Positions 45,059 through 64,000 of a stretch of DNA of 64,000 bases are shown piece by piece (within the stretch, counting starts at the first letter, position 1; every line of letters starts with the position of its first letter). Under the pieces are notes generated by a model that worked only from the letters and a program-made list of their open reading frames with translations, searched no databases and was not told the origin of the DNA. This DNA comes from Haloferula helveola. Lineage in GTDB: Bacteria > Verrucomicrobiota > Verrucomicrobiia > Verrucomicrobiales > Akkermansiaceae. The stretch covers positions 124,001-188,000 of the forward strand of contig NZ_AP024702.1 of assembly GCF_037076345.1 (NCBI RefSeq). Reading direction: 5' to 3'. The position numbers and the translations under genes were made by a program.

Positions 45059-45080
45059 GGGTATCTTGATCGGACGGACT

Positions 45081-46739: not shown

Positions 46740-46804
46740 GAAAGTCGGACGGGGAATGTGTGGACGAGGGTGCTCCATGCAGAAATCCCCCGGAGGTTGC
46801 CCAT

Positions 46805-48253: not shown

Positions 48254-51200
48254 CGTTCGATCAGGGACTCGTCGAGGTTCATGATGGCGTTGACGACCAA
48301 GGTGGCCGCCGCCAAGCGGGGAAGCGGAATGTTCTCCTCCCGGGGTGCTGCGCCGACCTGCAGCAGCTTCAGCGCGGCGTCGGAATCGGAGGCATAGCTC
48401 TCCAGTTGGAGCTTGAAGAGATCGAGCAGGACCTTGCCCTCTTCCTCGGTGGGGGGACGACTCGTCAAGCGCCTGAAAGCCTCGGCAACGAGCCCTCGCC
48501 CATCTTCTCCGTGGCGTTTGCAAAGATCGGCCGCGAGGACGCGCGAAGCTTCGAGAAACTGGGGATCATTCAGCAGGATGAGGGATTGGAGAGGTGACGT
48601 AGTGACCTCCCGCTTGACCGTGCAGACGTCCCGCTTGGGTGCGCCGAAGGTGGTCAGCACTGGGGCCGCGGCATTGCGTTTCCACCAGGTATAGACGCTC
48701 CGGCGGTAGAGCCCGTCGCCCTTGTCCGGCTTCACCGGCTTGAAGGACACCTCGACCTGATAGGGCTTGGCCGTCGGTCCGCCCCACTTGTCCACGAGGA
48801 GCCCGCTGACCGCGAGAGCATTGTCGCGGATCATCTCCGCCGCAAGACGGGTCGTGTGGCTCCGGGCAAGATAGAGATTCTCGGGATCCTTGTGTCGCAT
48901 CTCCGGAGTTGCCTCGGTGCTCTGGCGATAGGTGGCGGAGAGCACCATCATCCGCAGCAACCGCTTCACGTTCCATCCGTGGTCCATGAAGTCCCGGCTC
49001 AGCCAGTCCAGCAGCTCTGGATGGGTCGGAGGCGTCCCTTGCACTCCGAAATCCTCCGAAGTTGCCACCAGGCCCCGGCCGAAAACGAGCTGCCAGTAGC
49101 GGTTGACCGTAACCCGACTCGTCAGCGGGTTGCCCGGGTCGGTCAGCCAACCGGCGAAACCCAGACGGTTCTTCGGCAGATCCGGGGCCATCGGCGGAAG
49201 AAATCCGGGAGTATCGGGGCTGACTTCCTCTCCGTGACTGTCGTAAGCGCCGCGTTCGAGGATATAGGCCTTCCGTGGCGTTTCCATTTCCCGCATTACC
49301 GAGATCGCAGGAATGGAGTCCATCACCTTGTTCCACCCTGCCCGCTCCTCTTGAAGCGCCTGTCGGGCCGTCCGGCTCGACGGATGAACGGCGAGCAGGA
49401 AATGCTCCCTTAGGCGGCTCCGCTCCCCTTCATCGAGTTCGTCCGGTGCCTTGGCGAGCAGCTCCGACAGAGTCCCCACGACGCAGGCTTCGGCGATCTC
49501 CAGCGAACTGGCTTCCCGACTCCAGAAGCGGAAGCCGTCGACCAGGCCGTTCCGCAAGCCGGAGTCCCTGAAGCGTTCCCCGAGAACCAAACCCAGCTTG
49601 TCGCCGTTCCCGACCCGGGTGAACTGGTTGATGCTCCGCGTCAGGCCGTCCCGAACGACCACGGTCTCGGCCTCGCTGCCATTGACGAAAATCCTGAGAC
49701 CGGAAGCCTTACTGGATCCATCGTAGGTCACGCCGAGATGGACCCACTTGCCCGCCTCCACCGGCTCGCGCGTCTGCACCCTCACGGCGTCACCCGGCCA
49801 GAAGTGGGCAAGCGAAGCCGTCGGCTTGCCATCGCTCAGAAGGAACTCATAGCCCATGCACGCCGAGTCGTCGGCACCCTTGCCACGGCTCAGGATATTG
49901 GCTCGCGGCGCAATCTCCGACGGCTTGATCCAGACCGCGGCCGACCACGGCTGATCCCGGTCGTAGGCTCCGACATCATGCACCTCAACCGAATCGTCAC
50001 CGGTAACCAAGATCGCGCGACCGCTCCGTCCATTCTCGACAATCCGGTTGAGCAGCTTCGTCGTTCCGGAATGCTCGGGATTGGCGTCGTTCACAAGCCG
50101 TCCTTGCCTTCCGTCGATCTTTTCTACGGACTCGAAGTCGAGTGCGACCTCAAGGCCTCCGGACTCGCCGCCTCTCTCCGGATCCGACAGCCATGCGACG
50201 AAGTCCGCCTCGGCAGCCCCGGCGATCTGCCGCAACTCGCTTTCCGCAGCCTCGACCGCCGCCTTCCCGGCGGCGAGGGCCGCCTTGTCTTCCGGAGTTG
50301 CCAATGGCATCGCGGGCGTCGGAGCAGCCTCGCTGAAATAGGCGATCAGTCCGGACTCATCGACATTCGCGAAGAACGATCCGAGCGAATAGAAATCCCG
50401 CATCGTCAACGGGTCATACTTGTGATCGTGACACCGCGTGCAATTCATCGTGAGCCCGAGGAATGCGGTGCCCACGGTTTCGACCCGATCCGCGACATAC
50501 TCGCAGCGGTATTCCTCAAGAACGCTTCCCCCTTCCATGCAATGCCCGTGCAGCCGACTGAAGGTGGTCGCGAGGCGTTGTTGGTCAGTCGCCCCGGGAA
50601 TCAGATCGCCGGCAACCTGCTCGGTGATGAAGCGACCGTATGGCATGTTGTCGCGGAAAGCCCGGAGCACCCAGTCCCGCCACGGCCAGACGCGCCGCTC
50701 ATGATCCCTCTGGTAGCCGTAGGAGTCCGAATACCGCGCCACGTCCAACCACTCGGCCGTCATCCTCTCGGCATAGGCATCCGTCGCCAGAAGCCTGTCG
50801 GCAACCTTCTCGTAAGCATCCTCCGAAGTGTCGGACTCGAAGGCGTCGATCTCCTCCAGTGTCGGAGGCAGCCCCGTAAGATCGAAGCTCACCCGGCGCA
50901 ACCACTTCGCCCGGGGTGACTCCGGTGCGGGCTTCATCCCACTGTCCGAATGGCCGCGCGCGACGAACCGGTCGATCTCGTTGAGCGCCCAACCGCCTCC
51001 GGCCGAGGGCACCTGGACGGTCTCGGGCACGGGCACGAATGACCAGTGCTTCTCGTACTTCGCACCCTGCAGAATCCAACGGTCGATCAGATCCTTCTCG
51101 GCGTCACTCAACGTCAGGTTCGAGTCGGGAGGCGGCATCATCTCATCCTCATCTTCCGATCGGATCAGATGGTGCAGCTCGCTCTTTTGGAGATTTCCCG

Positions 51201-51417
51201 GAACGATTCCGAAATACCCGCCGAGGTCCTCATGGGCATGCTCTTCGGTATCCAGCCTGAAGTCGGACTTCTGGTTCTTCGCATCCGGCCCGTGACACTT
51301 GAAGCAGCGATCCGACAGGAGCGGCTTGATCACGTTTTGGAAGGATACACGCTCCTCCGCAAAAACCGCGCCTGCAAGCAGGACGGATCCGAGGACGATG
51401 GAGGATCTCAGGTTCAT
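48250..51417 (-). CDS. PSCyt1/DUF1549/LamG/DUF1553 cytochrome-domain protein
   Basis: A 1055-residue exported protein; the ATG at 51417 gives the signal MNLRSSIVLGSVLLAGAVFA. The heme motif is CFKCH (38-42). PSCyt1 is followed by DUF1549 (RVSFDLTGLPPTLEEIDAFE, AEWLDVARYSDSYGYQRDHE), then a LamG/concanavalin domain at about 425-645 (WSAAVWIKPSEIAPRANILS, LVDGFRFWSREASSLEIAEA), then DUF1553 (NPLTSRVTVNRYWQLVFGRG). The paralogue at 27871 lacks the LamG part, which explains the length difference. It is the first gene of a five-gene minus-strand operon with DUF1501, two sulfatases and the DUF5060 protein. Confidence 0.9.
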   Translation of the reverse strand: MNLRSSIVLGSVLLAGAVFAEERVSFQNVIKPLLSDRCFKCHGPDAKNQKSDFRLDTEEHAHEDLGGYFGIVPGNLQKSELHHLIRSEDEDEMMPPPDSNLTLSDAEKDLIDRWILQGAKYEKHWSFVPVPETVQVPSAGGGWALNEIDRFVARGHSDSGMKPAPESPRAKWLRRVSFDLTGLPPTLEEIDAFESDTSEDAYEKVADRLLATDAYAERMTAEWLDVARYSDSYGYQRDHERRVWPWRDWVLRAFRDNMPYGRFITEQVAGDLIPGATDQQRLATTFSRLHGHCMEGGSVLEEYRCEYVADRVETVGTAFLGLTMNCTRCHDHKYDPLTMRDFYSLGSFFANVDESGLIAYFSEAAPTPAMPLATPEDKAALAAGKAAVEAAESELRQIAGAAEADFVAWLSDPERGGESGGLEVALDFESVEKIDGRQGRLVNDANPEHSGTTKLLNRIVENGRSGRAILVTGDDSVEVHDVGAYDRDQPWSAAVWIKPSEIAPRANILSRGKGADDSACMGYEFLLSDGKPTASLAHFWPGDAVRVQTREPVEAGKWVHLGVTYDGSSKASGLRIFVNGSEAETVVVRDGLTRSINQFTRVGNGDKLGLVLGERFRDSGLRNGLVDGFRFWSREASSLEIAEACVVGTLSELLAKAPDELDEGERSRLREHFLLAVHPSSRTARQALQEERAGWNKVMDSIPAISVMREMETPRKAYILERGAYDSHGEEVSPDTPGFLPPMAPDLPKNRLGFAGWLTDPGNPLTSRVTVNRYWQLVFGRGLVATSEDFGVQGTPPTHPELLDWLSRDFMDHGWNVKRLLRMMVLSATYRQSTEATPEMRHKDPENLYLARSHTTRLAAEMIRDNALAVSGLLVDKWGGPTAKPYQVEVSFKPVKPDKGDGLYRRSVYTWWKRNAAAPVLTTFGAPKRDVCTVKREVTTSPLQSLILLNDPQFLEASRVLAADLCKRHGEDGRGLVAEAFRRLTSRPPTEEEGKVLLDLFKLQLESYASDSDAALKLLQVGAAPREENIPLPRLAAATLVVNAIMNLDESLIER

Positions 51418-51508
51418 CTGGAAAAGATACGCTGGCTCTCGTCTCACCTTTTGGACAACTGGAGATACAATTTGTGTATATTTTGACGGTCTTCGAGCCA
51501 GACGCGGA

Positions 51509-52252
51509 TCAGCGGAAGCGCCGGCGATACTGGGCTGGTGTGATTCCGAAGCTCCGACGAAACTTCCGTGTAAGATGACTCTGGTCGTAGAAGCCGCACT
51601 CGATGGCGATCTGGGTGATCGCCTTCTTCGTGGCCACCAATGCCCTGCGCACGTGTTGCAGCCGGACCGTCAGCAGGAACTCGGTCGGCGACATGTGCAG
51701 GATGGCACGGAATCGCACGTTGAACTGGGTGGACGACAGCCCGACCTTGGCCGCCATCGAAGACATGTTTACCGGCTCTCGGAAGTGTTCCTCGATGTGC
51801 CGGATGACCGGCACCATCTCTTGGAAGTGGCTGAGCTCGGCCTCGGGCGTATCGATTCGGTACATGACGCCGGCAATACCCTCGATCCGGTCGTCGTCTC
51901 CGATGAGCGGGATCTTGGTCGAGACGTACCATCGTGCGGGCCCCTTCACCTGGGGCACCAGCCAAACCTCACTCGGGGTCCGCTGCCGGGTCTCCATCGC
52001 CCGCCGGTCCTCGGCATGATAGGCCTCGGCGAGCGCAGGTGGCTGGAAGTCGTGGTCCGTCTTTCCGACCAGATCCCCCATCTCCTTCAGTCCGAAGACC
52101 TCACGCAACACCGACTCACTGACTCCGATATAGCGGTGATCCCGGTCCTTGGCATAGAAGTAGGCGTTCGGCAGGAAGTCGAACAACTCGAACACCCTCG
52201 CCGCCATCGGATACCTGCAGGCGAAGTCGGTTTCTGCGATCGAGGCGTTCAT
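51509..52252 (-). CDS. PAS domain-containing AraC family transcriptional regulator
   Basis: A 247-residue cytoplasmic regulator. A PAS domain occupies ~15-135 (LPNAYFYAKDRDHRYIGVSE, GKTDHDFQPPALAEAYHAED, GIAGVMYRIDTPEAELSHF), and a double helix-turn-helix of AraC type is at ~145-245 (MAAKVGLSSTQFNVRFRAIL, QIAIECGFYDQSHLTRKFRR, FGITPAQYRRRF). It is the last gene of the proposed anhydrogalactose cluster, 35 bp after aldose 1-epimerase. It may sense a small molecule or redox state through PAS, and could regulate this cluster or the adjacent sulfatase/PSCyt operon starting 91 bp downstream. Confidence 0.85.
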   Translation of the reverse strand: MNASIAETDFACRYPMAARVFELFDFLPNAYFYAKDRDHRYIGVSESVLREVFGLKEMGDLVGKTDHDFQPPALAEAYHAEDRRAMETRQRTPSEVWLVPQVKGPARWYVSTKIPLIGDDDRIEGIAGVMYRIDTPEAELSHFQEMVPVIRHIEEHFREPVNMSSMAAKVGLSSTQFNVRFRAILHMSPTEFLLTVRLQHVRRALVATKKAITQIAIECGFYDQSHLTRKFRRSFGITPAQYRRRFR

Positions 52253-52287: not shown

Positions 52288-53337
52288 CTACACGGTTCCG
52301 AATCGAAACACGGTGCGGGATCGAAAGGCGTCGCCCGGCCGCAGCACGCTGTCCGGAGCATCCGCAAGGTTCGGGCCGTTCGGGTAGCGGGATGTTTCAC
52401 AGCAGAAGCCCCGGAACTGACCGTATCGCATGCCTTCATTCCGGCGCAGCTCATCGGAGGTATAGAAACCGGTGTAGAAAAGCATCCCGGGCTCGGACGT
52501 CAGGACCTCCATCCGCCTTGCGCTCGAGGCATCGACGAACTCGGCGACCTTGCCGAACTCGCCCGCCTTCTTCCGAAAGACATAGTAATGCTCGAACCCC
52601 TTCGATTCCTCTGCGAACACCTCGCCAATCGGCTTCGGACGGCTGTAGTCCCAGACACTGCCCGAAACCTCGAACTCGTCACCGACGGGAACGTTCGACC
52701 CATCGGGGACAAGGAAACGGTCGGCATCGATCATCGCCTCGTGATCAAGGATCCGGTCGGCGAAGCCGTTCAGATTGAAGTAGGCGTGATGGGTCATCGA
52801 AAGCGGCGTCGCACGGTCGGTGACCGCACCATACTCGATCGAGAGTTCGTTCTCCTCGGTCACGGTGAACGTCACCGACATCTCCAGGTTGCCCGGGTAG
52901 CCGTTGTCGCCGTCCGGGCTCGTGATGGTCAGACGCAAACCGACCTTTCCCGGTTCCTCGAAGGTTTCGGCTTCCCACACGCGCTTGTCGATCGAGTCGA
53001 TCCCGCCGTGAAGGTGGTTCTCCCCATCGTTGGCCGGGACCTCATGACGAACGCCGTCAACCCCGAATGCGGCATCCTTGATGCGACCGGCATAGCGGCC
53101 GACGACGCAACCGAAGTAGGGTGAGTTGGAGCGATACGCCTCGCTGAAGTACTCCCCGAGCGAATCGAAGCCGCAAGTGATCTCGCCCGGTCGCCCGTCG
53201 CGGTCCGCCACCCGCAGCGAGGTCAGGATACCGCCATAGTTCGTGATCCGGGCGACAAGTCCGTTTCCACTTGAAAGGGTGAAGAGATCCACCTCGCGCC
53301 CGCCTACCTCGCCGAACGGCTGCCGTTCAACTTTCAT
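52288..53337 (-). CDS. galM: Aldose 1-epimerase (mutarotase)
   Basis: A 349-residue enzyme that interconverts alpha and beta anomers of aldoses. The ATG at 53337 overlaps the permease stop (ATGA); the long upstream extension is just the overlapping frame. Motifs are ITNYGGILTSLRV, NSPYFGCVVGRYAGRI, NDGENHLHGG, TPLSMTHHAYFNLNG and MLFYTGFYTSDE, containing the conserved His pair and the catalytic Glu region. There is no signal peptide, so it is cytoplasmic. Beside GH117 and the anhydrogalactose genes it probably acts on galactose or a related aldose released from the oligosaccharide. Confidence 0.9.
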   Translation of the reverse strand: MKVERQPFGEVGGREVDLFTLSSGNGLVARITNYGGILTSLRVADRDGRPGEITCGFDSLGEYFSEAYRSNSPYFGCVVGRYAGRIKDAAFGVDGVRHEVPANDGENHLHGGIDSIDKRVWEAETFEEPGKVGLRLTITSPDGDNGYPGNLEMSVTFTVTEENELSIEYGAVTDRATPLSMTHHAYFNLNGFADRILDHEAMIDADRFLVPDGSNVPVGDEFEVSGSVWDYSRPKPIGEVFAEESKGFEHYYVFRKKAGEFGKVAEFVDASSARRMEVLTSEPGMLFYTGFYTSDELRRNEGMRYGQFRGFCCETSRYPNGPNLADAPDSVLRPGDAFRSRTVFRFGTV

Positions 53338-54395
53338 GGCGCTTCCTCCGCTACGACCACGGGCTCGCCACCTTCGGGGGCTCCGGCGGCCATCTTGTTG
53401 CCATACGAGATGATCAGGATACCGATCACCATGCAGCCCAGTCCGGCGTAGAGAAAACGTCTCGCCCGCCCCGATGCCTTGGCCCACTCACCGACCACGA
53501 TCCCGCTGACGATGGCCGTCACGACACATGCCGTGTTGAAGATCGCATAGCCGACGGTGTTCCCGACACTCCCCAGCTTGAACGCGGCGAAGGCGAACAC
53601 GGCTGAAGCGGCATAGTGGAAGAACGCCATGATGAAGATCAAAGAGAGATTCCGTAGGAAACTCGGCGTCCCGAACGACGGCCAAGCCTTCTTGCTGGTC
53701 AGCTGCCACGCGAAGTAGCCGGCCATGATGACCCCTCCGCTGAGAAAAATCGGCAGCATCACCGCAAGCGCCGTGACCCACTCCGGATTACCCTGTGCCT
53801 GGCTGGCCGCATGCAGAGGAGGCCGCCCTACCGCATTGGCGAAACTGAAGCCGGTCGCCAGCAAGCCCCCGGACACCGCGATCATGATTCCAGCCGACAT
53901 CGAACCCTTGCCGTCGTCAGCACCCTTTGGTGAATCGTTCTCCCTCGCCATGCCGGCCTTGCCGTTGGCGACAATCCCGACCAGCACGAAAAGCAAGCCG
54001 ACCAGAATCGCCGCGAACGCGCCCTGCGGCGGGAGTCCGTCGACAAAGAACGGCAGCAGGGAACCGACCAGGATCACCGTGCCGATGAAGATCGAGAACC
54101 CGAGCGACATCCCGATGTGATGGATCGCTTTTCCCCACATCATCACTCCGATTCCCCAAAGCACGCTTGTCGCTACCATCTTCGGCAATACCGCCTTCAC
54201 TTCCGGTGCGGCGTAAATCTCCCCCGCTCCTTTCATGATCAGAAGGGTTGCCACCAACGGCACGACGAACATCGTGAGCATGAAGAACAGACCCCAGGTG
54301 TTCTCTTCCTTGAAGTCCTTCGTGAATTTCCCGGGCAAGGCGTACAGCCCGAGCATGAGTCCGGCGACGAGCGCCCAAGTTATGCCTTCGATCAT
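53334..54395 (-). CDS. RhaT-like sugar/proton symporter
   Basis: A 353-residue, strongly hydrophobic protein with about ten membrane segments. The sequence matches the L-rhamnose/H+ symporter family: GITWALVAGLMLGLYALPGK, NTWGLFFMLTMFVVPLVATL, VLWGIGVMMWGKAIHHIGMS and SIFIGTVILVGSLLPFFVDG. It lies between the KduD-like dehydrogenase and galM genes. In this cluster I infer uptake of 3,6-anhydro-L-galactose or a related deoxy/anhydro sugar rather than rhamnose, since no rhamnose isomerase, kinase or aldolase is present. Confidence 0.85.
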   Translation of the reverse strand: MIEGITWALVAGLMLGLYALPGKFTKDFKEENTWGLFFMLTMFVVPLVATLLIMKGAGEIYAAPEVKAVLPKMVATSVLWGIGVMMWGKAIHHIGMSLGFSIFIGTVILVGSLLPFFVDGLPPQGAFAAILVGLLFVLVGIVANGKAGMARENDSPKGADDGKGSMSAGIMIAVSGGLLATGFSFANAVGRPPLHAASQAQGNPEWVTALAVMLPIFLSGGVIMAGYFAWQLTSKKAWPSFGTPSFLRNLSLIFIMAFFHYAASAVFAFAAFKLGSVGNTVGYAIFNTACVVTAIVSGIVVGEWAKASGRARRFLYAGLGCMVIGILIISYGNKMAAGAPEGGEPVVVAEEAP

Positions 54396-54442
54396 GGATT
54401 TTGGTGGGTTCGGTTGATTCGGGTTTTGGAAAATTGGCGGGC

Positions 54443-55213
54443 TCAGCGGCCCATCCAGCCGCCATCGACGAGGAGCGTGGCCCCGTGCACGTAGGCGGAG
54501 GCAGCGGAGGCGAGGAATACCGCGGCCCCCTTGAAGTCAGAGGGTTCGCCCCAGCGACCGGCCGGGATGCGTGACAGGATCTGCCCGCTTCGCACCGGAT
54601 CGTCGCGCAGCGCCTCGGTGTTGTCGGTGGCGATGTATCCGGGTGCGATGGCATTGACGTTGACCCCCTTCGCAGCCCACTCGTTGGCCAGCGCCATCGT
54701 GAGCTGGCCGATGCCGCCCTTCGATGCGGCGTAGCCAGGCACGGTGATGCCACCTTGGAAGGTAAGCAGGGAGGCCGTGAAGATGATCTTGCCGGAACCG
54801 CGGGCCACCATATCTTTGCCAAGTTCGCGACTGAGCACGAACTGCGCGTTCAGGTTCACCTCCATCACCTGGTCCCAATACTCGTCCGGATGTTCCGCAG
54901 CGGGTTTCCTCAGGATCGTGCCGGCGTTGTTCACGAGCACGTCGATTGCCGGAACGTCCGACTTGAGATCGGCAATGAACCGGTAGAGTTCCGCCCGGTC
55001 GGAAAAATCGCACCGATACCCGCGGAACGAACGGCCTGTCGCCGTGACGCATCGCTCGACCTCGCTACCGGCCTCTTCAAGCGAAGCAGAGACGCCGATG
55101 ATATCCGCTCCAGCTTCGGCCAGACCTTCCGCAATCGCCTTTCCGATTCCACGTTTGCAGCCGGTTACCAGGGCTGTTTTGCCTTCGAGCGAGAACTGGT
55201 CGAGAATGCTCAT
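54443..55213 (-). CDS. KduD-like short-chain dehydrogenase
   Basis: A 256-residue NAD(P)-dependent oxidoreductase. The nucleotide-binding motif TGCKRGIG is at 17-24, NNAG at 95-98, and the catalytic Ser148 and Tyr161-xxx-Lys165. The C-terminal part (ATDNTEALRDDPVRSGQILS, RIPAGRWGEPSDFKGAAVFL, VDGGWMGR) closely follows KduD, the 2-deoxy-D-gluconate/5-keto-4-deoxyuronate reductase. In the known AHG route a KduD-like enzyme reduces 2,5-diketo-3-deoxy-L-galactonate to 2-keto-3-deoxy-D-gluconate. The neighbouring zinc alcohol dehydrogenase would supply that substrate, so I infer this role here. Confidence 0.88.
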   Translation of the reverse strand: MSILDQFSLEGKTALVTGCKRGIGKAIAEGLAEAGADIIGVSASLEEAGSEVERCVTATGRSFRGYRCDFSDRAELYRFIADLKSDVPAIDVLVNNAGTILRKPAAEHPDEYWDQVMEVNLNAQFVLSRELGKDMVARGSGKIIFTASLLTFQGGITVPGYAASKGGIGQLTMALANEWAAKGVNVNAIAPGYIATDNTEALRDDPVRSGQILSRIPAGRWGEPSDFKGAAVFLASAASAYVHGATLLVDGGWMGR

Positions 55214-55244
55214 GGGTTGGAGAACAGAGGTGCCCGGGCGCCGT

Positions 55245-56258
55245 TCAACTGCACCGAATCAGGGTTTTGATTCCGTCGGGGTTCGCATCGATCGCTGCAA
55301 AGGCATCACCGACTTCGTCGAGCGGGCGGACATCGGTGATCAAACGATCGATCATCAGCCGCCCGGCAGCCGCCAACGCGATGGCCTCGTCGAAGTCCCT
55401 TTCCTCGTAAAGCCGGGCACCGATCAACCGGAGTTCGGACCAGAAGAAACGGAACAGGTTCACAGGCTTCGGCTGGGGGTGGATCGCAACCATCACGATG
55501 CGACCCCGCACCGCCGCAAGTTCGGTCATCACTTCGACTCCCGGCGCCGACCCGGAAACTTCGAAGACGCAGTCCGCCATCCCGCCCGACGTCAGCTCGG
55601 TGACGCACTCCACCACGTTCCCGGAAATAGGGTTCACCGCATCGAAGCCGAGGGAACGCACAAGTTCGATCCGTTGCTCGTTCGGTTCGGAAACAATGAC
55701 CCTGGCGCCCTTCTCGCGTGCGACCAGGGCAATCAGCAATCCGATCGGGCCGCCGCCGATCACCACGCAGGTCTCACCGCGGGACACTTCGCCAAGACGC
55801 ACATCATGACATGCGACCGCCGCCGGCTCGATCAGGGCGCCGTGCTCGAGCGAAAGCGATTCAGGCAGCCGGTGCAACGTGTAGGCCGGAACGGTCCACG
55901 ACGACTGCATGCCGCCGGGCAGATCGATTCCGATGAACTTCAGGTTCTTCCCGACGTGGGAATGCCCCCGGTCGAAACCGACCGGATCGCCAAACTTCAG
56001 CGGGCGCACCGCCACCCTGTCGCCGACCGACCAACCGCCCACCCCATCGCCAAGGGCCGCCACCGTCGCGGACACCTCGTGCCCGAGAATCTGCGGTTTC
56101 GCCACGCGAGCATCCATGTGGCCGTGATAGATGTGCATGTCGGTTCCACACACGCCACAGAAGCCCACATCGAGCCTGACTTCTCCGGGCCCGGGCGGCA
56201 GCGATTCGCCCGCACCTGCCTCAACCACCCGGTCTCCTCGATAAAACGCGGCCTTCAT
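55245..56258 (-). CDS. Zinc-dependent alcohol dehydrogenase, candidate 2-keto-3-deoxy-L-galactonate 5-dehydrogenase
   Basis: A 337-residue medium-chain dehydrogenase starting at the ATG at 56258. The catalytic zinc ligands can be read as Cys37 (GVCGTDMH) and His60-Glu61 (GHE). The NAD-binding glycine motif is VVIGGGPIG (to ~173). The lobe that normally carries four structural-zinc cysteines (~85-115) has none. The gene starts 4 bp after the enolase-superfamily gene and is followed by the KduD-like reductase. By analogy to the AHG and L-galactonate routes it should oxidise C5 of 2-keto-3-deoxy-L-galactonate. Other sugar alcohol or acid substrates remain possible. Confidence 0.85.
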   Translation of the reverse strand: MKAAFYRGDRVVEAGAGESLPPGPGEVRLDVGFCGVCGTDMHIYHGHMDARVAKPQILGHEVSATVAALGDGVGGWSVGDRVAVRPLKFGDPVGFDRGHSHVGKNLKFIGIDLPGGMQSSWTVPAYTLHRLPESLSLEHGALIEPAAVACHDVRLGEVSRGETCVVIGGGPIGLLIALVAREKGARVIVSEPNEQRIELVRSLGFDAVNPISGNVVECVTELTSGGMADCVFEVSGSAPGVEVMTELAAVRGRIVMVAIHPQPKPVNLFRFFWSELRLIGARLYEERDFDEAIALAAAGRLMIDRLITDVRPLDEVGDAFAAIDANPDGIKTLIRCS

Positions 56259-56262
56259 ACGA

Positions 56263-57402
56263 TCAGCGTGTCGTTTCGAACGGAGCCAGCCTGTCCCAAT
56301 CGAACTCAACTCCGGTACCGGGTTCGTCCGGGGCGACGGCGAGATGGTTTTCCATCCTCAACGGACGGGTCGTATACTCGTCGATCGGAAAGCTGTGGAC
56401 CTCCAACCATCCGCCGTGAGCTTGTGAAGCGACCAGCGACACGTGCAGTTCCTGCATGCCGTGCGAACACACCGGGATACCCGCGTCCGCCGATAGCCTG
56501 GCGACCTGCAACCAACCGGTGATCCCCCCGCAGTTCGATGCGTCCGGCTGGATGAAGGAGAGCTTGGCCCGACGGAACGCATGGCCGAACTCATGGATGG
56601 TGTGGAGATTCTCCCCCATCGCGAGCGGTACTCCTGTCTCATCCGCAATCCTTCCGAAGCCGAGATAGTCGTCGGGCAGAGTCGGCTCCTCGAACCACAG
56701 GATACCGAACTCACCGAAGCGCCTCGCGGCGTCGATCGCCCGCTCCACGCTCATCGAATAGTTCGCATCAACCATGAACGCGACATCGGGCCCGATGGCG
56801 TCGCGCACCGCACTCACGCGGCGCAGATCCTCGTCAAGCGTGGGTCTGCCAACTTTGATCTTCACCCCGTTGAAACCCTCGTCGACGTAGCCGCAAGCGC
56901 TCTCGACGAGCTTGTCGAGCGGATACAGGAGGTCGATACCCCCACGATAAGCCTTGCAGGTGCGCCCGGCACCTCCGGCAAGTTCCCACAGCGGTTTCTC
57001 GAGCCGTTTGCCCCGGAGATCCCAAAGAGCGATGTCGATCGCGGAGATGGCAAAGGACGAGATCCCGCCACGCCCGACGTAGTGGATGCGCCACTCCATC
57101 GCCTCATGGATCTCTTCGACCTTGCTCGCGTCCACCCCGATCAGGGACGGCGCGAGATCCGACTCGACCATCGCCTTGATCGCCCGCCCCCCGAGCCCAC
57201 CGGTGTAGGTGTAGCCGGTTCCCTCGGTGCCGTCGGCAAGACGCACCGTCACGGTGACCAGTTCGAAATGGCTGTGGTCCGGATGCCTCGCGTCCTTGAG
57301 CACCTCGCGCAGTGGCACGGTGAAATGCCGGGCCTCGATCGAGATGACGGTCGACGTCCCGACCGCTGCCCCCGCTTCAATGGATTCCGATTCGATCAAC
57401 AT
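56263..57402 (-). CDS. Enolase-superfamily enzyme, probable 3,6-anhydro-L-galactonate cycloisomerase
   Basis: A 379-residue cytoplasmic protein of the mandelate racemase/muconate lactonizing group. Metal and acid-base residues are readable: Lys181/Lys183 (KIK), Asp212 (VDAN), Glu238-239 (WFEEP), Glu264 (GENLHTIHE), Asp287 (QPDASN) and His314 (SHGMQELH). The stretches [23 protein letters not shown] and [12 protein letters not shown] agree closely with the Vibrio EJY3 3,6-anhydro-L-galactonate cycloisomerase as I remember it. That enzyme opens the anhydro ring to give 2-keto-3-deoxy-L-galactonate. The gene follows the aldehyde dehydrogenase with a 1-bp gap. The identity needs an alignment to confirm. 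Confidence 0.85.
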
Positions 57403-57403
57403 C

Positions 57404-58879
57404 CTAGTCTCCGAAGTTCACGTAGAAGGTTTTCTTCTCGAGATAGTTCTCGAGGCCGTATTTGCCGTCCTCACCGCCGGTTCCGCTGAGCTTGTGCCCG
57501 TTGTGGAAGCCCTGGCGCTGTTCACCCATCGCGCGGTTGACATAGATCTCGCCGAATTCCAGTTCGAGCACCGCCCGCTGGATCTTGCGCATGTCCCGGG
57601 TGAAGAGGAATGCGGAGAGCCCGTAGTCGCTGTCGTTGGCAAGCCGGATCGCCTCCTCGAAGCTTCCGATCCTCATGATCGGGCTCACCACACCGAAGAC
57701 CTCCTCGCGCATCACCTCCATTTCGTTGGTGGCACCCGTCAGGATCGTCGGCTCATACCAGTAGCCCTTCCCGTATGCCGGACCTTCCGGGCGTTTGCCC
57801 CCGAGGGCCAGCGTGCAGCCCTGCTCGATCGCTCTCGAAACCATGGCCTCCATCCGCTCCAGTTCATGGCGGTTGACCTTCGGACCGAGGTCCGTTTCGG
57901 GGTCCATCGGATCGCCAAGCTTCAGCTTCGCGCTGGCATCGACGAACTTGCGGACGAACTCGTCGTGAACCGCGTCGTGAATGTAGAACCGCTCGCTGCA
58001 GGTGCAGACCTGGCCGCAGTTCAGGTAGCGCGACACCATCGCCGCTTCCACCGCTTTGTCCACATCGCCATCCTCAAGCAGGATGAAGGGTGCCTTGCCT
58101 CCGAGTTCGAGGCGCACCGCCGTCAGGTTGTCGGCGCACATCCCGAAAATCCGCTGACCGGTCGCGGTGCTTCCGGTCATGGTGACCAACCGGGTGATCG
58201 GATTCGTCACCAGTTCGGTGCCCATGGTCGAGCCCCCGCCCGTCACCAGATTGAGCACACCGGCCGGCAGGCCCGCTTCGAGCGCCAGCTGCCCCAATGC
58301 CATGACCGCTGCCGGAGTTTCACTCGGCGGCTTGATCACCATGACGTTTCCGGCCGTCAGAGCCGGTCCCAGCTTCCGGCAAGCCAGCGCAAGCGGGAAA
58401 TTCCACGCGGCGATGCCCACGCATACGCCATAGGGCACCTTGTGGATCCAGATGTGTTCGTCGGGATTGTCGGATGGAAGAATGTCCCCTTCAAGGCGCC
58501 GGGCTCCATGGGCGGCAAACTCGATGAAGTCGGCCGATACGTCGACTTCGCCCAACGCGAGTTCGTAGGTCTTGCCTTGCTCGGCAGTGAGCATTCCCGC
58601 CAGCCGTTCGCGATTTTCCCGAATCTTGCCTGCGAAGCTCACCAGCAAGCGACCACGCTCCACCGCCGGCATTGCAGCCCACTCCGAACGAGCGGCCTCG
58701 GCCGCCTGCAGCGCGAGCCGGGCGTCCTCCGCACCCCCTTGCGGGACCCGGTAGACAGTCTCCTCATTGGTCGGATTCTCGACGTCGATCCATCCTCCAT
58801 CGAAGGACTTTCGGAACTCGCCGCCGATCAACATCAGCAGTTCCGCTACAGGTGCCTTTCCCGACGATTCGTCACTCAT
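57404..58879 (-). CDS. AldA-like aldehyde dehydrogenase, probable 3,6-anhydro-L-galactose dehydrogenase
   Basis: A 491-residue NAD(P)-dependent aldehyde dehydrogenase. The catalytic Cys292 lies in NCGQVCTC and the general base Glu258 in RLELGGKAP; the NAD site is [10 protein letters not shown]. The overall sequence follows E. coli AldA (lactaldehyde/glycolaldehyde dehydrogenase), for example [20 protein letters not shown] and [10 protein letters not shown] at the C-terminus. AHG dehydrogenases belong to this neighbourhood of the family. It stands between a GntR regulator and the cycloisomerase gene, so oxidation of AHG to anhydrogalactonate is the best guess. Lactaldehyde oxidation is the alternative. 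Confidence 0.88.
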
Positions 58880-58900
58880 CCAGTTCTACTAGGTTCTTCG

Positions 58901-59530
58901 TTATTGAATGTTCTGTTCCAACGCCGCGATCGCCCGGGACAGATCCCGGTCACGCACCGCTTCGAAAATCGCATAGTGCTCGGCATGGATCTGCTCCATT
59001 TCCAGCAAGCGGGAGTAGTGGAGGATCATGCGCGTGACAATCGGCCGCCACACATCAAGCAGGTCGGGTTCCCCCGCGCACTCGAGCAGGCACTCGTGGA
59101 ACGCCAGATCCAGCTCGCCGATGCGCGACATGTCGCCTTCCCTGCAGACTTCTCCCAACTCGTCCACGATCGTCTCGAGCCTCTTCAGATCCGCCTCGTC
59201 GAGACGCCGGATCGAACGCCTCAAGGCCCGGATCTCGATCTCCCGGCGCACTTTCACAACCAATGGCTGCATCCACTCGGCCGGTGCATCGCTAACCCGT
59301 GACCCACAGTTCGGCTCCGACACCACGAGCCCGTGCTGACCCAGTTGCATCAGCACGTCGCGGATCGGTCCCCGACTCACCCCGAAGCGCTCCGCGAGCT
59401 CCTGCTCACGCAGCTTCGATCCCCGCGGCAACGCTCCCGACAGGATGTCCGCACGCAAACGACCCGCGATCTGCTCCCGAATCGTCCGAATCGGGGCCAC
59501 GCGGCCGTTCTGCGGAGGAATCTTGCTCAT
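58901..59530 (-). CDS. GntR/FadR family transcriptional regulator (copy 1)
   Basis: A 209-residue regulator. The ATG at 59530 was chosen because the winged helix begins shortly after it (IRTIREQIAGRLRADILSG, LAERFGVSRGPIRDVLMQLG). An FCD ligand-binding domain occupies ~85-205 with metal-site residues in DLAFHECLLE and EHYAIFEAV. It is about 60 percent identical by eye to the second regulator at 60940, with nearly the same recognition helix. Inverted repeats 6-30 bp upstream of the start suggest autoregulation together with the dehydrogenase and cycloisomerase genes downstream. The probable ligand is an anhydrogalactose-pathway acid. Confidence 0.88.
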   Translation of the reverse strand: MSKIPPQNGRVAPIRTIREQIAGRLRADILSGALPRGSKLREQELAERFGVSRGPIRDVLMQLGQHGLVVSEPNCGSRVSDAPAEWMQPLVVKVRREIEIRALRRSIRRLDEADLKRLETIVDELGEVCREGDMSRIGELDLAFHECLLECAGEPDLLDVWRPIVTRMILHYSRLLEMEQIHAEHYAIFEAVRDRDLSRAIAALEQNIQ

Positions 59531-59535
59531 GTTGA

Positions 59536-59559
59536 TTGCAGATTGTCGACAAACGACAA
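59536..59559. promoter_or_regulatory. Overlapping GntR-type operators before regulator copy 1
   Basis: The 17-mer ttgcagattgtcgacaa (59536-59552) agrees at 15 of 17 bases with the reverse complement of the perfect site at 61737. A second, overlapping 17-mer ttgtcgacaaacgacaa (59543-59559) agrees at 14 of 17 with that site. They lie just before the ATG at 59530, between the GH117 stop and this gene, where a bound FadR-type repressor would block transcription of the pathway genes. Confidence 0.7.
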
Positions 59560-59616
59560 AGCCGTCAACTTCTGATTGTGGTACCTGCGCAATTTCCGCG
59601 AAAAGCGCGTTTGGAA

Positions 59617-60813
59617 TCACTCGGCCTTGCCGTCAGCCCCTTTCGCGACATGCCGAACCACCCGTCGCGAACGGAAGCCGCGGATGTATTGGTAGTCGCC
59701 GGTCCGATACTGGTGGGTCAGCCCCCATCGCAGCGCCTCGGTCGGCTCCTCGTCCGGGTCCAGCGCACGATTCACCCCGATCGCATGGGGGGCGCTCTTG
59801 ATCACCGACATGATCTCGAAATTGACCCCATCCGGCGCCCACTGGATCGTGTTCTTCTCCGGGCCGTCGGTGGTGATCAATGAGGCGATGCCATCCTTGT
59901 AGGGCCAAACACACACCTCATGGCCACTATTGCTGACCGGGTTGTAGGGTGACTTCTTGTAGGGGCCCTTCGGGTCGTCGGCGATCGCGACACCGTGCCG
60001 GATTTGCCGTCCGCCGAAGGTGATCTCTTCCCCCATTTGCTCTCCTTTGTAGTAGAGATAGAACCTTCCGCGATACGGCAGGATGCAGGGATCATGGACC
60101 TTGTGGCTGTCGAAGTCGCCCTTCTTCTCGACCAGGAAGCGGTTCTGCTCGGTCCCCTTCCACACACCGTTGTCCGCGGGACTGAGAATGGGCTCGTCGC
60201 TCTTCGTCCACGGCCCGCGCGGCGAATCGGACCAAGCGAGTCCGATCTGGTTCTTGACCCTGACGTTGTACGGCGACTTCACGGTCTGGTAGCAAAGGTA
60301 GTAGGTCCCCTCCCACTCCATGATCTCCACGGTAAAGACGGATCGGTCGTCGTAGGCCCCCGGCTCTCCACGGGGAACCGCCAGTCCCTCCTCTTTCCAA
60401 GTGATGCCGTCGTCCGAAGTCGCGTACCAGATATCGCATCGGTCCCACGGGAACACCTTGTCCTTCTCGATATCGCCACCGAATCCCTGGGTCGGCCCGG
60501 TGCTGCGCGTGTACCAGCAGTAGTACTTGCCGTCGTGTCGGATGATCGCGCTCGGGTCCCGCCGGACAACACCTTCCTCATAGGCGAAGTCACCCTTCAG
60601 ATCGAAAACGGTGAACTCGATGAACCACTCGCTGCCTAGGTCCGGCCACTGCAGGGCCCTCTTCGAGGCCGCGCTCAACTTGTCGGCGTTGGTGATACCG
60701 AGGCGGTCCATTTGCTCCGCGGAGACCGGAGTATCCGGCTGTTCATCCGCGAAAGCCGCCGTGGCCACCACGGCTGACACGAGTATGACGACGATCGGAA
60801 GATTCGATTTCAT
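59617..60813 (-). CDS. Glycoside hydrolase family 117 (alpha-1,3-anhydro-L-galactosidase family)
   Basis: A 398-residue exported enzyme; the ATG at 60813 gives the signal [20 protein letters not shown]. The five-bladed propeller sequence is typical of GH117: [40 protein letters not shown] and [20 protein letters not shown]. The active-site acids Asp86 (RDPSA), Asp241 (VHDPC) and Glu299 (SGHEVC) keep the spacing of Asp97/Asp252/Glu310 in Zobellia AhgA. It should release 3,6-anhydro-L-galactose from the non-reducing end of neoagaro-oligosaccharides in the periplasm. With the same offset, the His302 position is Asn291, so substrate choice may differ from AhgA. Confidence 0.85.
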
Positions 60814-60939: not shown

Positions 60940-61551
60940 TCAGCGAATGTTCTGCTTCAACGCGCGGACCGCCCGTTGGATATCCTTCGCTCTCACCGCC
61001 TCAAGGATCTCGACGTGCTCCTCGTGAATCTCCTCCCGCTCCACCAACCGGGTGTATTGCAGGATCATGCGGGTCACGATGGGGAGCCAGATCGCGATGA
61101 GATCAGGCTCGTCGGCACAGGACAGCAACGCCTCGTGGAACGAAATGTCGAGGTCGGCAACCGCCGCCATGTCTCCGTCGGCACATGCCTTGCCGATGCC
61201 CTCGACCAGTTCCTCAAGGCGGGCGATGTCGTTGTCGCCAATCTGCTTGATGGATTTCCGGAGCGCGAAAATCTCGATATCGAGCCGGATCTTCACAATC
61301 AGCGGCTGCATCCACTCCGCAGCCCGCTCGCTGACCGTCGCTCCGCAGTTCGGCTCTGAAACCGCCAACCCCTGCTGGGTCAGTTGCATGATCACGTCGC
61401 GGATCGGGGCCCGGCTCACTCCGAACCTTTCCGCCAGCGCCTGCTCACGGAGCTTGGTTCCGCGGGGAAGCCGGCCGGACAGGATGTCGGCACGCAACAT
61501 CCCGACAATTTGGTCACGAATCGTCCGAACCGGGGTAATCTTCTCCTTCAT
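60940..61551 (-). CDS. GntR/FadR family transcriptional regulator (copy 2)
   Basis: A 203-residue regulator with winged helix (TIRDQIVGMLRADILSGRLP, LAERFGVSRAPIRDVIMQL) and FCD domain (LDISFHEALLSCADEPDLIA, EEHVEILEAVRAKDIQRAVR). It is a close paralogue of the regulator at 58901 and has an almost unchanged recognition helix, so both should bind the same operator. It is the most upstream gene of the minus-strand cluster, 126 bp before GH117. It is divergent from the secreted three-module protein, with two operator copies in the shared intergenic region. Probably a sugar-acid-responsive repressor. Confidence 0.88.
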   Translation of the reverse strand: MKEKITPVRTIRDQIVGMLRADILSGRLPRGTKLREQALAERFGVSRAPIRDVIMQLTQQGLAVSEPNCGATVSERAAEWMQPLIVKIRLDIEIFALRKSIKQIGDNDIARLEELVEGIGKACADGDMAAVADLDISFHEALLSCADEPDLIAIWLPIVTRMILQYTRLVEREEIHEEHVEILEAVRAKDIQRAVRALKQNIR

Positions 61552-61736: not shown

Positions 61737-61753
61737 TTGTAGACAATCTACAA
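61737..61753. promoter_or_regulatory. GntR/FadR-type operator, perfect inverted repeat
   Basis: ttgtaga-caa-tctacaa is a perfect 7-bp inverted repeat around a 3-bp centre. It lies 118 bp upstream of the ATG at 61871 and 186 bp upstream of the divergent regulator at 61551. Near matches precede regulator copy 1 (59536-59559), which marks it as the probable binding site of these paired regulators. Confidence 0.75.
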
Positions 61754-61773
61754 CAAGTGAACCAACGTGGCTT

Positions 61774-61790
61774 TTGTATTCAATCTACAA
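61774..61790. promoter_or_regulatory. GntR/FadR-type operator, second copy
   Basis: ttgtatt-caa-tctacaa keeps the centre and right half of the site at 61737 exactly and matches 5 of 7 bases in the left half. Centre-to-centre distance is 37 bp (about 3.5 helical turns). It is 80 bp upstream of the ATG at 61871. Confidence 0.7.
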
Positions 61791-61870: not shown

Positions 61871-64000
61871 ATGAAGAACCCCAACCCATCCTGCCTGCTC
61901 GCAGGCCTTTGCCTTCTGGGTGCGCTGCCTCTGCAGGCCCAGACCACCATCACCATCGACAATCTCCGCGTGATCCCCACCGGAGGTTTGGTACAAGGAT
62001 CCCCGTCCGAGGGAACGCTCGTCGCCAACGGAGCCTTCCCCGGAGAATTCAATCAGGGAACCCCGACCGACGCGCCGATCCGGATCGACGGGCTTGATCT
62101 CGACGGAGTCGGAGGCAACGACGACTACATCGACTTCACACTCCGGTTCGAGGCCACCCGCGACAGCAACCCTCAGGTCAACTGGACCGGTGCGGGCCAA
62201 GGGGTGACCGGCGACCTGAGCCCCGGCAACCTCGAGGAACTGACCATCACGGTGGTCGATATCGTCGCCAAACCCGGACTGGCCGGCTTCGCCAACTTTG
62301 ACGGTTTTACCGCAGCTTCCCTCTACCTCGGCGGGAGCGGAATCATCACGGACGGTGAGGCCGACATCAACGGCACCCCCGTCGCGGACACTTTCGACGC
62401 GACCGGTGGATTCACGTTCAACGTGACCGAACTCGCCCTTCCCGGCACTCCGGCCACGGTGGTCATCGACAACGTGGTGGCGAGCGACGGCGACTTCCGC
62501 TTCCGCCAATGCGACATTTCGATCACCTATGATCCGAACGCCCTTCCACCGCCCGTGACCGTGACTTCGGTCGGCACGAACCTGCGAAACGACAACGTCT
62601 ACCCGACAGTCGGTGGACCGCTGCAGGGCGGCGCGAGCATCGGTGACATCATTCCGAATCCCGACGCGACCTACCCTCCGGCCGGCAGCCCGGCTACGGA
62701 CTTCCCGCTCCGCTGGACCGGACTCGATCTCGATAGCGACGGCCTCGCGGATGACTATTTCAACTTCTCCATCCGCTTCACCAACGCCTCCGGCATCGGT
62801 GAGAACATCGCGACCAGCAACCAGGGGGTCGGCGTCAAGGGAGGTGCCGGGGGCGAACTTGCCAACGACAACCTGAATGACGGAGACGAGATTCTGGTCG
62901 AGGTCGTTGACATCCAGGTGAGCCCCGGCCTTGTCGGGAGCGTGATTTTCGACGGCTTCAGCGCCGCAGGCCTCGGGGCCGGCGTCGGAGCGAGCGGCGG
63001 CGCGGTTTCGATCGGCTGCGATATCAATGGACAACCGGTGTTCATCGATCTCCCGGACAACCTCGCCTACCAATACGCCACCGACAAGGCGACGTTCGCC
63101 TCGCTCATCTCCACAGTCCTGTTCGACAACGTTAATGAAACTGCCGACCTCAAGAACCCTACCGGCCGGGTCCGCGAACTGGACATGCAGTTCACCTACG
63201 ACGCGTCGGTCGCGCCGCCGCCGGTATCGTTGACCACGAATGATCTCAACCTCAGGAATGACGCGGCATTCACCTATCCGGACGTCGCCCCGCCCGGACC
63301 GGGCAAGGGCGGTTCGAACCTCGGCAACATCGTGGCTCAGCCCGGCTTCGACGCTACCGCGGTGGTCGCCGCACCGACCATCGACCTGCTTTGCCGCTGG
63401 CAGGACCTGGACCTCGACAACAGCGGATCGGCCGATGACTACATCGACTTCACGGTCCGCTTCAGCTCCGGCACGGCGGACAATGTGAGCTTCGGCGGCG
63501 AGGGAATCGGCATTTCCGGGAACGGCTCGGCGGGAATCGATCCCGGCGAGGTGCTGACCGCGGAGATCGTCAATATCCAGCTCAGCCCGGGCACCCTCGG
63601 CAGCGTGACCTTCGGTGGCTTCTCAGAGGCCGGCTTCTTCGCCAGCGGCAGCGCGGGCGCCGGCAACCCCACGTCCGGTGACGCGACCTGCGACATCAAT
63701 GGCAATACCGTGATGATCAACCTCAACGGCACCGGCTATACGAATCAGACCGTGAGAGCAGCCTTCGGGAGCCCGACTTCAACGGTGGTGTTCGACAACG
63801 CCACCTACACCGCAGGCACGATCACCCCGGTCGGAAGGGCACGGGACTTCGACTTCGCGTTCACCTACAGCCAGTCGGGCGCCCCCCTGCCGGACGGCAA
63901 CCTCCGGATCAGCAGCGTCACCTTCAATTCGGGCGACCTGACGATCACCACGGTGGATGTCGTCGACGGCGCGACCTATCATCTCGAGCACTCACCCGAT
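61871..64000 (+). CDS. Secreted protein of three tandem ~215-residue modules, unknown function (runs off window)
   Basis: An open frame from the ATG at 61871 to the right edge, at least 710 residues, starting with a signal peptide (MKNPNPSCLLAGLCLLGALP, then LQAQ). Three modules repeat at about 25-215, 220-440 and 450-670. Each contains a W/I-x-GLDLD--G--DDYI-FT-RF line, a G-G-G--L-PG/DE line, then V-DI---PGL-GSV-F-GFS-AG and a D-NG line. After the third module comes GNLRISSVTFNSGDLTITTV and a GATYHLEHS line, like the C-terminal tails of other verrucomicrobial secreted proteins. I do not recognise the module. Two GntR-type operators upstream suggest it is co-regulated with the anhydrogalactose genes. 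Confidence 0.75.
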   Translation, partial: MKNPNPSCLLAGLCLLGALPLQAQTTITIDNLRVIPTGGLVQGSPSEGTLVANGAFPGEFNQGTPTDAPIRIDGLDLDGVGGNDDYIDFTLRFEATRDSNPQVNWTGAGQGVTGDLSPGNLEELTITVVDIVAKPGLAGFANFDGFTAASLYLGGSGIITDGEADINGTPVADTFDATGGFTFNVTELALPGTPATVVIDNVVASDGDFRFRQCDISITYDPNALPPPVTVTSVGTNLRNDNVYPTVGGPLQGGASIGDIIPNPDATYPPAGSPATDFPLRWTGLDLDSDGLADDYFNFSIRFTNASGIGENIATSNQGVGVKGGAGGELANDNLNDGDEILVEVVDIQVSPGLVGSVIFDGFSAAGLGAGVGASGGAVSIGCDINGQPVFIDLPDNLAYQYATDKATFASLISTVLFDNVNETADLKNPTGRVRELDMQFTYDASVAPPPVSLTTNDLNLRNDAAFTYPDVAPPGPGKGGSNLGNIVAQPGFDATAVVAAPTIDLLCRWQDLDLDNSGSADDYIDFTVRFSSGTADNVSFGGEGIGISGNGSAGIDPGEVLTAEIVNIQLSPGTLGSVTFGGFSEAGFFASGSAGAGNPTSGDATCDINGNTVMINLNGTGYTNQTVRAAFGSPTSTVVFDNATYTAGTITPVGRARDFDFAFTYSQSGAPLPDGNLRISSVTFNSGDLTITTVDVVDGATYHLEHSPD

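Follow-up and report, generated by a model that had tools for sequence, protein, structure and literature searches.

We investigated a stretch of 64,000 nucleotides from the verrucomicrobium Haloferula helveola (hereafter the window), in which eight co-directional open reading frames (ORFs) on the minus strand, at positions 52288-60813, very probably belong to a GntR-controlled operon for freeing, importing and breaking down 3,6-anhydro-L-galactose (AHG, an unusual sugar in the agar of red algae), set in a larger porphyran/agar locus. This reading of the sequence draws on the protein families, the clade membership of a cycloisomerase, an aldehyde dehydrogenase and an alcohol dehydrogenase, a recurring neighbourhood, the phyletic coupling of the alcohol dehydrogenase, the palindromes and an aldolase encoded in the genome. 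Catabolism of AHG had been proposed in a preliminary description of this DNA, and was supported in its main line by the GH117 enzyme, the cycloisomerase clade and the linkage of the alcohol dehydrogenase. The genome is a single contig of 5.68 Mb, here called C1, with the window at C1:124001-188000; L- and G-numbers are our labels for loci and genomes, respectively.

Organisation of the gene cluster

The run begins with a GH117 3,6-anhydro-alpha-L-galactosidase (59617..60813), followed by the FCD-type GntR regulator GntR1 (58901..59530 by our own start reading; the ORF opens at 59620) and an AldA-like aldehyde dehydrogenase proposed to be the AHG dehydrogenase (AHGD; 57404..58879). Next come an MR/MLE enzyme of the enolase superfamily, assigned as 3,6-anhydro-L-galactonate cycloisomerase (ACI; 56263..57402), a zinc alcohol dehydrogenase (ADH; 55245..56258) proposed to be a 5-dehydrogenase of 2-keto-3-deoxy-L-galactonate (L-KDGal), and a KduD-like short-chain dehydrogenase/reductase (SDR; 54443..55213), proposed to reduce the 2,5-diketo-3-deoxy intermediate to 2-keto-3-deoxy-gluconate (KDG). 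A RhaT-like DMT permease, the proposed AHG importer (53334..54395), and a GalM-like aldose 1-epimerase (52288..53337) close the run. The eight genes, their order and the families named in the preliminary description were all recovered by ORF analysis and Pfam/NCBIfam scans.

Most junctions overlapped or almost touched, given our own readings of the start sites (GH117 at 60813, ADH at 56258, GalM at 53337). From GH117 to GalM the distances were -4, 21, 1, 4, 31, 47 and -4 bases with GntR1 taken from its ORF start at 59620; the gap between GH117 and GntR1 becomes 86 bases with a start at 59530, which is more likely since the alignment with its FCD-type paralogue GntR2 begins near that position. 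The one sigma-70-like site (shuffle mean 2.0) and 10 terminator-like sites (shuffle mean 7.9) were uninformative.

GH117, proposed AHG dehydrogenase and cycloisomerase

The GH117 protein was 82% identical to the solved enzyme 3p2n (252/306 residues compared, E 2e-207), a match close enough to bear out its assignment as a 3p2n-type 3,6-anhydro-alpha-L-galactosidase. Its residues D86, D241 and E299 align with D97, D252 and E310 of 3p2n, which we take to be the catalytic Asp/Asp/Glu; position 302, which we also associated with catalysis, is an Asn in 3p2n, presumably belongs to the numbering of another GH117, and was not used. A hydrophobic, signal-peptide-like N-terminus was present in GH117 and in none of AHGD, ACI, ADH, SDR and GalM, so that AHG is expected to be released outside the cytoplasm and to require import.

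The nearest solved match of AHGD was 6j75 (E 4e-178), titled aldehyde dehydrogenase A, which we take to be a Vibrio AHG dehydrogenase. AHGD fell in a six-row clade (support 99, starred) with five homologues from the Planctomycetota-Verrucomicrobiota-Chlamydiota (PVC) group, each encoded beside a cycloisomerase. It was 68-74% identical to these homologues (L052, L083, L094, L101, L109) and 56% identical to AHGD of Zobellia russellii. PVC bacteria hold two AHGD types, one that falls with those of Bacteroidota (in Pontiella and others: L024, L026-L029, L033, L037) and the type of the window (in the same five loci), which suggests separate gains.

For the enolase-superfamily protein, the best solved match was 5xd7, the 3,6-anhydro-alpha-L-galactonate cycloisomerase of Vibrio EJY3 (E 5.8e-167), followed, after its mutant, by 2ovl (5e-93) and the talarate/galactarate dehydratase 2pp0, the nearest solved named dehydratase, which was far weaker (1e-52 against 6e-167). 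Identity was 65% to 5xd7 (232/359), 45% to 2ovl and 28-41% to 11 paralogues. In a quick tree of 102 rows, with these 11 MR/MLE paralogues as outgroup, the window protein lay inside a 90-row group formed by itself, 5xd7 and 88 loci, and 2ovl and the paralogues lay outside. Asked whether it would group with another dehydratase clade, the protein thus sided with the Vibrio EJY3 cycloisomerase, and its preliminary assignment to the AHG pathway was upheld. Within the clade it shares an open fork with rows from Pseudomonadota; AHGD and ADH, in their own trees, fall among PVC rows. Residues K181/K183, D212, E238, E264, D287 and H314 were invariant in a 10-row alignment and match 5xd7; we take them to be the KxK motif, the metal ligands and the general-acid His. 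The His position that reads Asn in 5xd9 is His in the window protein. Only two MR_MLE_C matches exceeded the cut-off in this genome, that of the window (197 bits) and one at C1:1377716 (55 bits). The solved protein 2ovl is probably SCO3480, a Streptomyces enzyme reported with this cycloisomerase activity, as the primer-encoded N-terminus given in the excerpts of PMC9706016 agrees with the 2ovl numbering.

Conservation of the neighbourhood in other genomes

We compared 90 ACI loci, 10 from a search of the phylum and 80 named ones, the best 80 of at least 571 relatives; 88 were distinct, two places having been fetched twice. Partners were counted at our own bit thresholds anywhere in the fetched stretch (up to ~10 kb on either side of the cycloisomerase), the GH117 threshold of 180 bits also admitting other GH117 clades. 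ADH was found near the cycloisomerase in 52 loci, AHGD in 49, SDR in 41, RhaT in 34, GH117 in 33 and GalM in 32. All six partners occurred together in 18/90 loci, 17 titled Bacteroidota and one Rubripirellula, so the grouping of the cluster genes is not due to chance. The full set thus recurs near the cycloisomerase in Bacteroidota and Rubripirellula, and much of it in Opitutales: the cluster is of a known kind.

The Bacteroidota clusters of Zobellia (L078-L080), Flammeovirga (L063) and Echinicola (L038) hold the identical set of six partners, but differ in gene order, in an AHGD of another clade and in having no GntR homologue in their loci. AHGD and ADH were closest to those of the PVC clusters from Rubripirellula obstinata (L094), Opitutales (L109), Opitutaceae (L083), Pelagicoccus mobilis (L052) and a Verrucomicrobia metagenome-assembled genome (MAG; L101). 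The order ADH-SDR-AHGD-ACI is kept in L109, L083, L101 and L094, although these clusters otherwise differ in gene order and have one GntR against two here. L094 alone among the PVC clusters has the complete set of six partners; L083 and L109 consist of short contigs, and the SDR of L052 is distant. A GntR homologue above 100 bits was found, among the 90 loci, only in the PVC clusters L052, L094 and L101.

The alcohol dehydrogenase and reductase pair

Because the family evidence for ADH and SDR was the weakest in the cluster, their linkage to the cycloisomerase was tested. In 387 genomes of the phylum (ACI in 11, ADH in 37, both at E up to 1e-60), ADH was present in 11/11 genomes with ACI and in 26/376 genomes without it (Fisher p 1.4e-12). 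A tree of 66 rows was then built from 51 ADHs of at least 300 bits from ACI loci, 11 from 11 of the 26 ADH-bearing genomes without ACI and 4 unlinked ones from genomes with ACI. The window ADH fell in a group of 20/66 rows (support 100, starred), 17 from ACI loci, the window included, and 3 from ACI-bearing genomes; all 11 rows from genomes without ACI fell outside. Its identity to the ADHs of PVC clusters reached 72%. That ADH might be exclusive to AHG was rejected, genomes without ACI holding it too.

The SDR matched 4z9y (E 7e-74), and a KduD-like SDR of at least 400 bits was adjacent to ADH in 12/15 fetched ADH regions and one to two genes away in the other 3. The dehydrogenase/reductase pair of the preliminary description fits the P. 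atlantica-type route described in PMC5943477 (which, like the other papers below, is cited from excerpts). Zn-ADH and KduD-like SDR also occur together in 11 regions of genomes without ACI (L129-L139), so that the two may form a general module for inverting C5 of 3-deoxy-2-keto acids. In L129 the pair stands with GH88, heparinase-II/III-like and RraA-like genes, L130-L134 are similar by eye, and in L136 a GH115 gene is near the pair.

Permease, epimerase and proposed final catabolic steps

The permease has 9 hydrophobic segments and matched Pfam RhaT (1e-18), and against the equivalog models of the L-rhamnose/H+ symporter RhaT it reached at best 283 bits, below the cut-off of 369. A RhaT-like protein is encoded near 34/90 cycloisomerases, and the permease may import AHG. 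GalM matched Pfam Aldose_epim (1e-67).

The preliminary description placed the kinase and aldolase steps outside the window. Elsewhere in the genome, the aldolase was found, a 2-keto-3-deoxy-6-phosphogluconate (KDPG) aldolase above the TIGR01182 cut-off (C1:4927978-4928601), and for the kinase a candidate only: of three PfkB proteins above the Pfam cut-off, the one at C1:1342992-1344089 is closest to the KDG/KDGal kinase models. In G314 (L135), the gene for a homologue of this protein is separated by a few genes from an ADH/SDR pair and from an ORF that, by eye, resembles an aldolase. Protein families for all six steps of a P. atlantica-type pathway are thus encoded, the kinase as a candidate and ADH and SDR assigned by linkage.

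Galactan locus and GntR-type palindromes

The cluster forms one end of a locus for red-algal galactans that extends past the right end of the window. Beyond it lie a second GH117 gene, GH117-2 (C1:195773-196990; solved match 4u6d, 7e-174), three sulfatase genes and a GH16 gene whose product matches porphyranase B (3juu, 8e-65; together C1:197073-203263), a third, GH117-3 (C1:205012-206271), and a GH2 (C1:211437-213896). From this content, a porphyran or mixed agar is more likely to be the natural substrate than pure agarose. The GH16 had been missed by a genome search with PF00722 and was found by direct scan of the region; other GH16 genes are at C1:574453 and C1:1539955. Searches of the genome with Agarase_CBM and BPA_C gave no match, 14 controls being equally silent, so that absence of GH50 and GH86 is not shown. 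The preliminary description placed the endo-agarases outside the window; the endo-enzyme 14 kb to its right is porphyranase-like and not a classical agarase. Inside the locus, C1:191803-194649 (L021:7803-10649) codes for a 948-amino-acid protein in which TSP3 repeats were the sole Pfam match and for which no solved match was found.

GntR2 (60940..61551, minus strand; Pfam GntR 2.4e-16, FCD 3.9e-20), 126 bases before GH117, is the first gene of the likely operon. A perfect palindrome, TTGTAGA-N3-TCTACAA (61737..61753), lies 186 bases before it and is a likely GntR operator; a second copy with 2 mismatches (61774..61790) lies 223 bases before GntR2 and ~80 bases before a divergent plus-strand gene. 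Two overlapping operator-like sites with 2 and 3 mismatches (59536..59559) stand just before the likely GntR1 start. With up to 3 mismatches the palindrome had 5 matches in the window against 0.44 expected, a number reached in 0/100 shuffles. Allowing up to 2 mismatches, the genome held 14 sites, six of them in C1:183536-214768 (binomial 8e-11, or 6e-9 without the seed site, for a region chosen after the fact).

A matrix built from these six sites, scanned over C1:124001-224000, gave seven sites of at least 20.6 bits, the next scoring 13.5; at 9 bits or more there were 16 sites against 5-11 in 10 shuffles, the scores of the six sites themselves being circular. The seven sites stand at five promoter regions of a locus running ~27 kb past the window: two between GntR2 and the divergent gene, two overlapping before GntR1, one between GH117-2 (23 bases away) and a divergent sulfatase (44 bases away), one 48 bases before GH117-3, and one ~100 bases before a pilin-like gene (start by our own reading) preceding GH2. 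Like sites precede ADH in L052 (17.7 bits, ~95 bases) and L101 (16.5 bits, ~115 bases), with 14 such in 1.46 Mb, and a weak one (12.3 bits, 128 such in 1.46 Mb) is beside the GntR and GH117 genes of L094. The FCD-GntR genes and the palindromes common to predicted target promoters point to an FCD-type GntR regulon.

Adjoining genes

The limits 52288-60813 of the preliminary description were right for the run itself and slightly too narrow for its setting, as GntR2, the upstream palindromes (61737-61790) and a PAS/AraC-type regulator (51509..52252, minus strand, 35 bases behind GalM, membership uncertain) adjoin it. The divergent gene (61871..64000 with the start by our own reading, plus strand, continuing beyond the window to C1:188129), also of uncertain membership, has a signal-peptide-like N-terminus, no Pfam match and an operator region in common with GntR2. 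Downstream of the cluster and in the same direction, 43616-51447 holds two sulfatases, a DUF1501 and a PSCyt1/PSCyt2/PSD1 protein. Elsewhere in the window, a GlcNAc 2-epimerase family gene lies directly behind an ORF resembling, by eye, a NanA/DapA-family lyase/aldolase (191-2265), and a GH97 glycosidase adjoins a 1681-amino-acid Laminin_G/GSDH protein (16900-23939).

Discussion

We propose a pathway in which the substrate of each enzyme, the transport, the cellular location, the kinase and the GntR control with its effector are those we infer. Secreted or periplasmic GH117 would free AHG from neoagaro-oligosaccharides, and the RhaT-like permease would take it up. AHGD would oxidise AHG to anhydrogalactonate, which the cycloisomerase would convert to L-KDGal. 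The Zn-ADH would then oxidise C5 of L-KDGal and the KduD-like SDR would reduce it with the opposite configuration, giving KDG, from which the unlinked KDG kinase and KDPG aldolase would yield pyruvate and glyceraldehyde-3-phosphate. GalM may serve the galactose half or the sugar anomers, and the promoter regions of the larger locus carry the 17-bp GntR-type palindrome, their predicted operator. This scheme has AHGD, cycloisomerase, KDGal 5-dehydrogenase, diketo reductase and then KDG kinase in common with the L-AHG pathway, also published with its synteny, of P. atlantica T6c and Paraglaciecola hydrolytica S66 (PMC5943477), from which it differs in the phylum, in the FCD-GntR regulators and in the unlinked kinase and aldolase.

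Several observations weigh against this scheme. AHGD also passes the cut-off of the AldA-type aldehyde dehydrogenase model NF007497 (521 vs 500 bits). The ACI clade has a support of 89-91, unstarred, with long branches meeting in the tree, and 10 of the 11 outgroup paralogues were scanned without any reaching the cut-off of an NCBIfam model, so that the clade comparison was made against unnamed paralogues and not against characterised dehydratases. None of the six partners was found in 29/90 ACI loci, so the cycloisomerase does not always travel with this gene set; these partnerless loci (L030-L032, L035, L036, L040, L047 and L058 among them) include 17 titled Alphaproteobacteria and several short contigs. 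The phylum-wide counts come from searches that scored at most five candidates per genome, two ADHs from genomes with ACI, those of L028 and L140, group with rows from genomes without it, and the solved matches of ADH are generic dehydrogenases only. The SDR stays below the cut-off of the KduD equivalog TIGR01832 (326.4 vs 338.85 bits), and the SDRs of five Pontiella-type loci and of Pelagicoccus L052 show no more than a distant likeness to it (170-179 bits). ADH/SDR pairs are also found where there is no cycloisomerase, in at least one case amid uronate-type genes. The kinase candidate is far under the KDG and KDGal kinase cut-offs (281 vs 700 and 153 vs 440). Lastly, the 14 palindrome sites with up to 2 mismatches in the whole genome are fewer than the 19 of the reversed control, and support for the regulon comes from their clustering, not from this count.

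An alternative keeps the first two steps and has L-KDGal split directly by an aldolase or a KDGal kinase/aldolase; ADH and SDR would then act on something else, for example keto acids derived from L-galactose or from uronates. For Vibrio EJY3, the first two steps are believed to be followed by entry of L-KDGal into central metabolism, and E. coli is capable of using this compound (PMC5943477, PMC11219438, the latter treating the fate of L-KDGal); the pairs in genomes without ACI, with GH88 and heparinase-like genes in L129, point the same way. We consider it unlikely nonetheless, because ADH accompanies every ACI-bearing genome of the phylum sample, the window ADH group holds only members from ACI loci or ACI-bearing genomes, and the ADH-SDR-AHGD-ACI order is kept in four other loci.

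Two readings with another sugar are far less probable still. The D-enantiomer of AHG, from carrageenan, is degraded in Zobellia galactanivorans by dauABCD, whose oxidation and cycloisomerisation chemistry is alike and whose cluster includes a DMT sugar symporter, with a log2 fold change of 7.0 on D-AHG (PMC5698469). The dau system differs in enantiomer, in its kinase/aldolase route and in a distant cycloisomerase: the window protein shares 65% identity with the L-type Vibrio enzyme and matches the D-enzyme DauB (5olc) at only 7e-44, GH117 is an agar-side enzyme, and no kinase or aldolase is among the cluster genes, which makes a D-AHG cluster very improbable. The family names RhaT and AldA would suit L-rhamnose, L-fucose or L-galactose, a reading to which we give hardly any weight, since the permease stays well below the RhaT cut-off, like permeases recur near the cycloisomerase and the MR/MLE enzyme is of the anhydrogalactonate type.

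For the L-AHG cluster as proposed, the pathway itself is already published, and what is new here is the galactan locus beyond the window and the shared GntR-type palindromes. The observation of the preliminary description was right and its reading essentially right, for a pathway that is known. We hold the chances about even that one FCD-GntR pair, answering to an intermediate of the pathway such as L-KDGal or anhydrogalactonate, runs the porphyran/agar regulon through the 17-bp palindrome, and that the RhaT-like permease is a dedicated AHG importer; the excerpts of PMC5698469 and PMC3124978 on L-AHG genes describe neither a GntR regulator nor an L-AHG importer, GntR being mentioned in that of PMC5698469 only in a figure legend. 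A literature search for the AHG cycloisomerase in Verrucomicrobia returned no paper. For related bacteria, growth of a Kiritimatiellota isolate on agar (PMC10880615), Kiritimatiellales MAGs with red-algal enzymes (PMC11077953) and GH117 counts in PVC genomes (PMC4807772) have been reported. GTDB counts Pontiellaceae and Kiritimatiellales within Verrucomicrobiota. The present cluster would bring the AHG route to a genus and a family whose other sampled genomes gave no cycloisomerase match (E up to 1e-60), other genomes of the class having the enzyme, and the regulon and the candidate AHG transporter would be testable additions to a published pathway.

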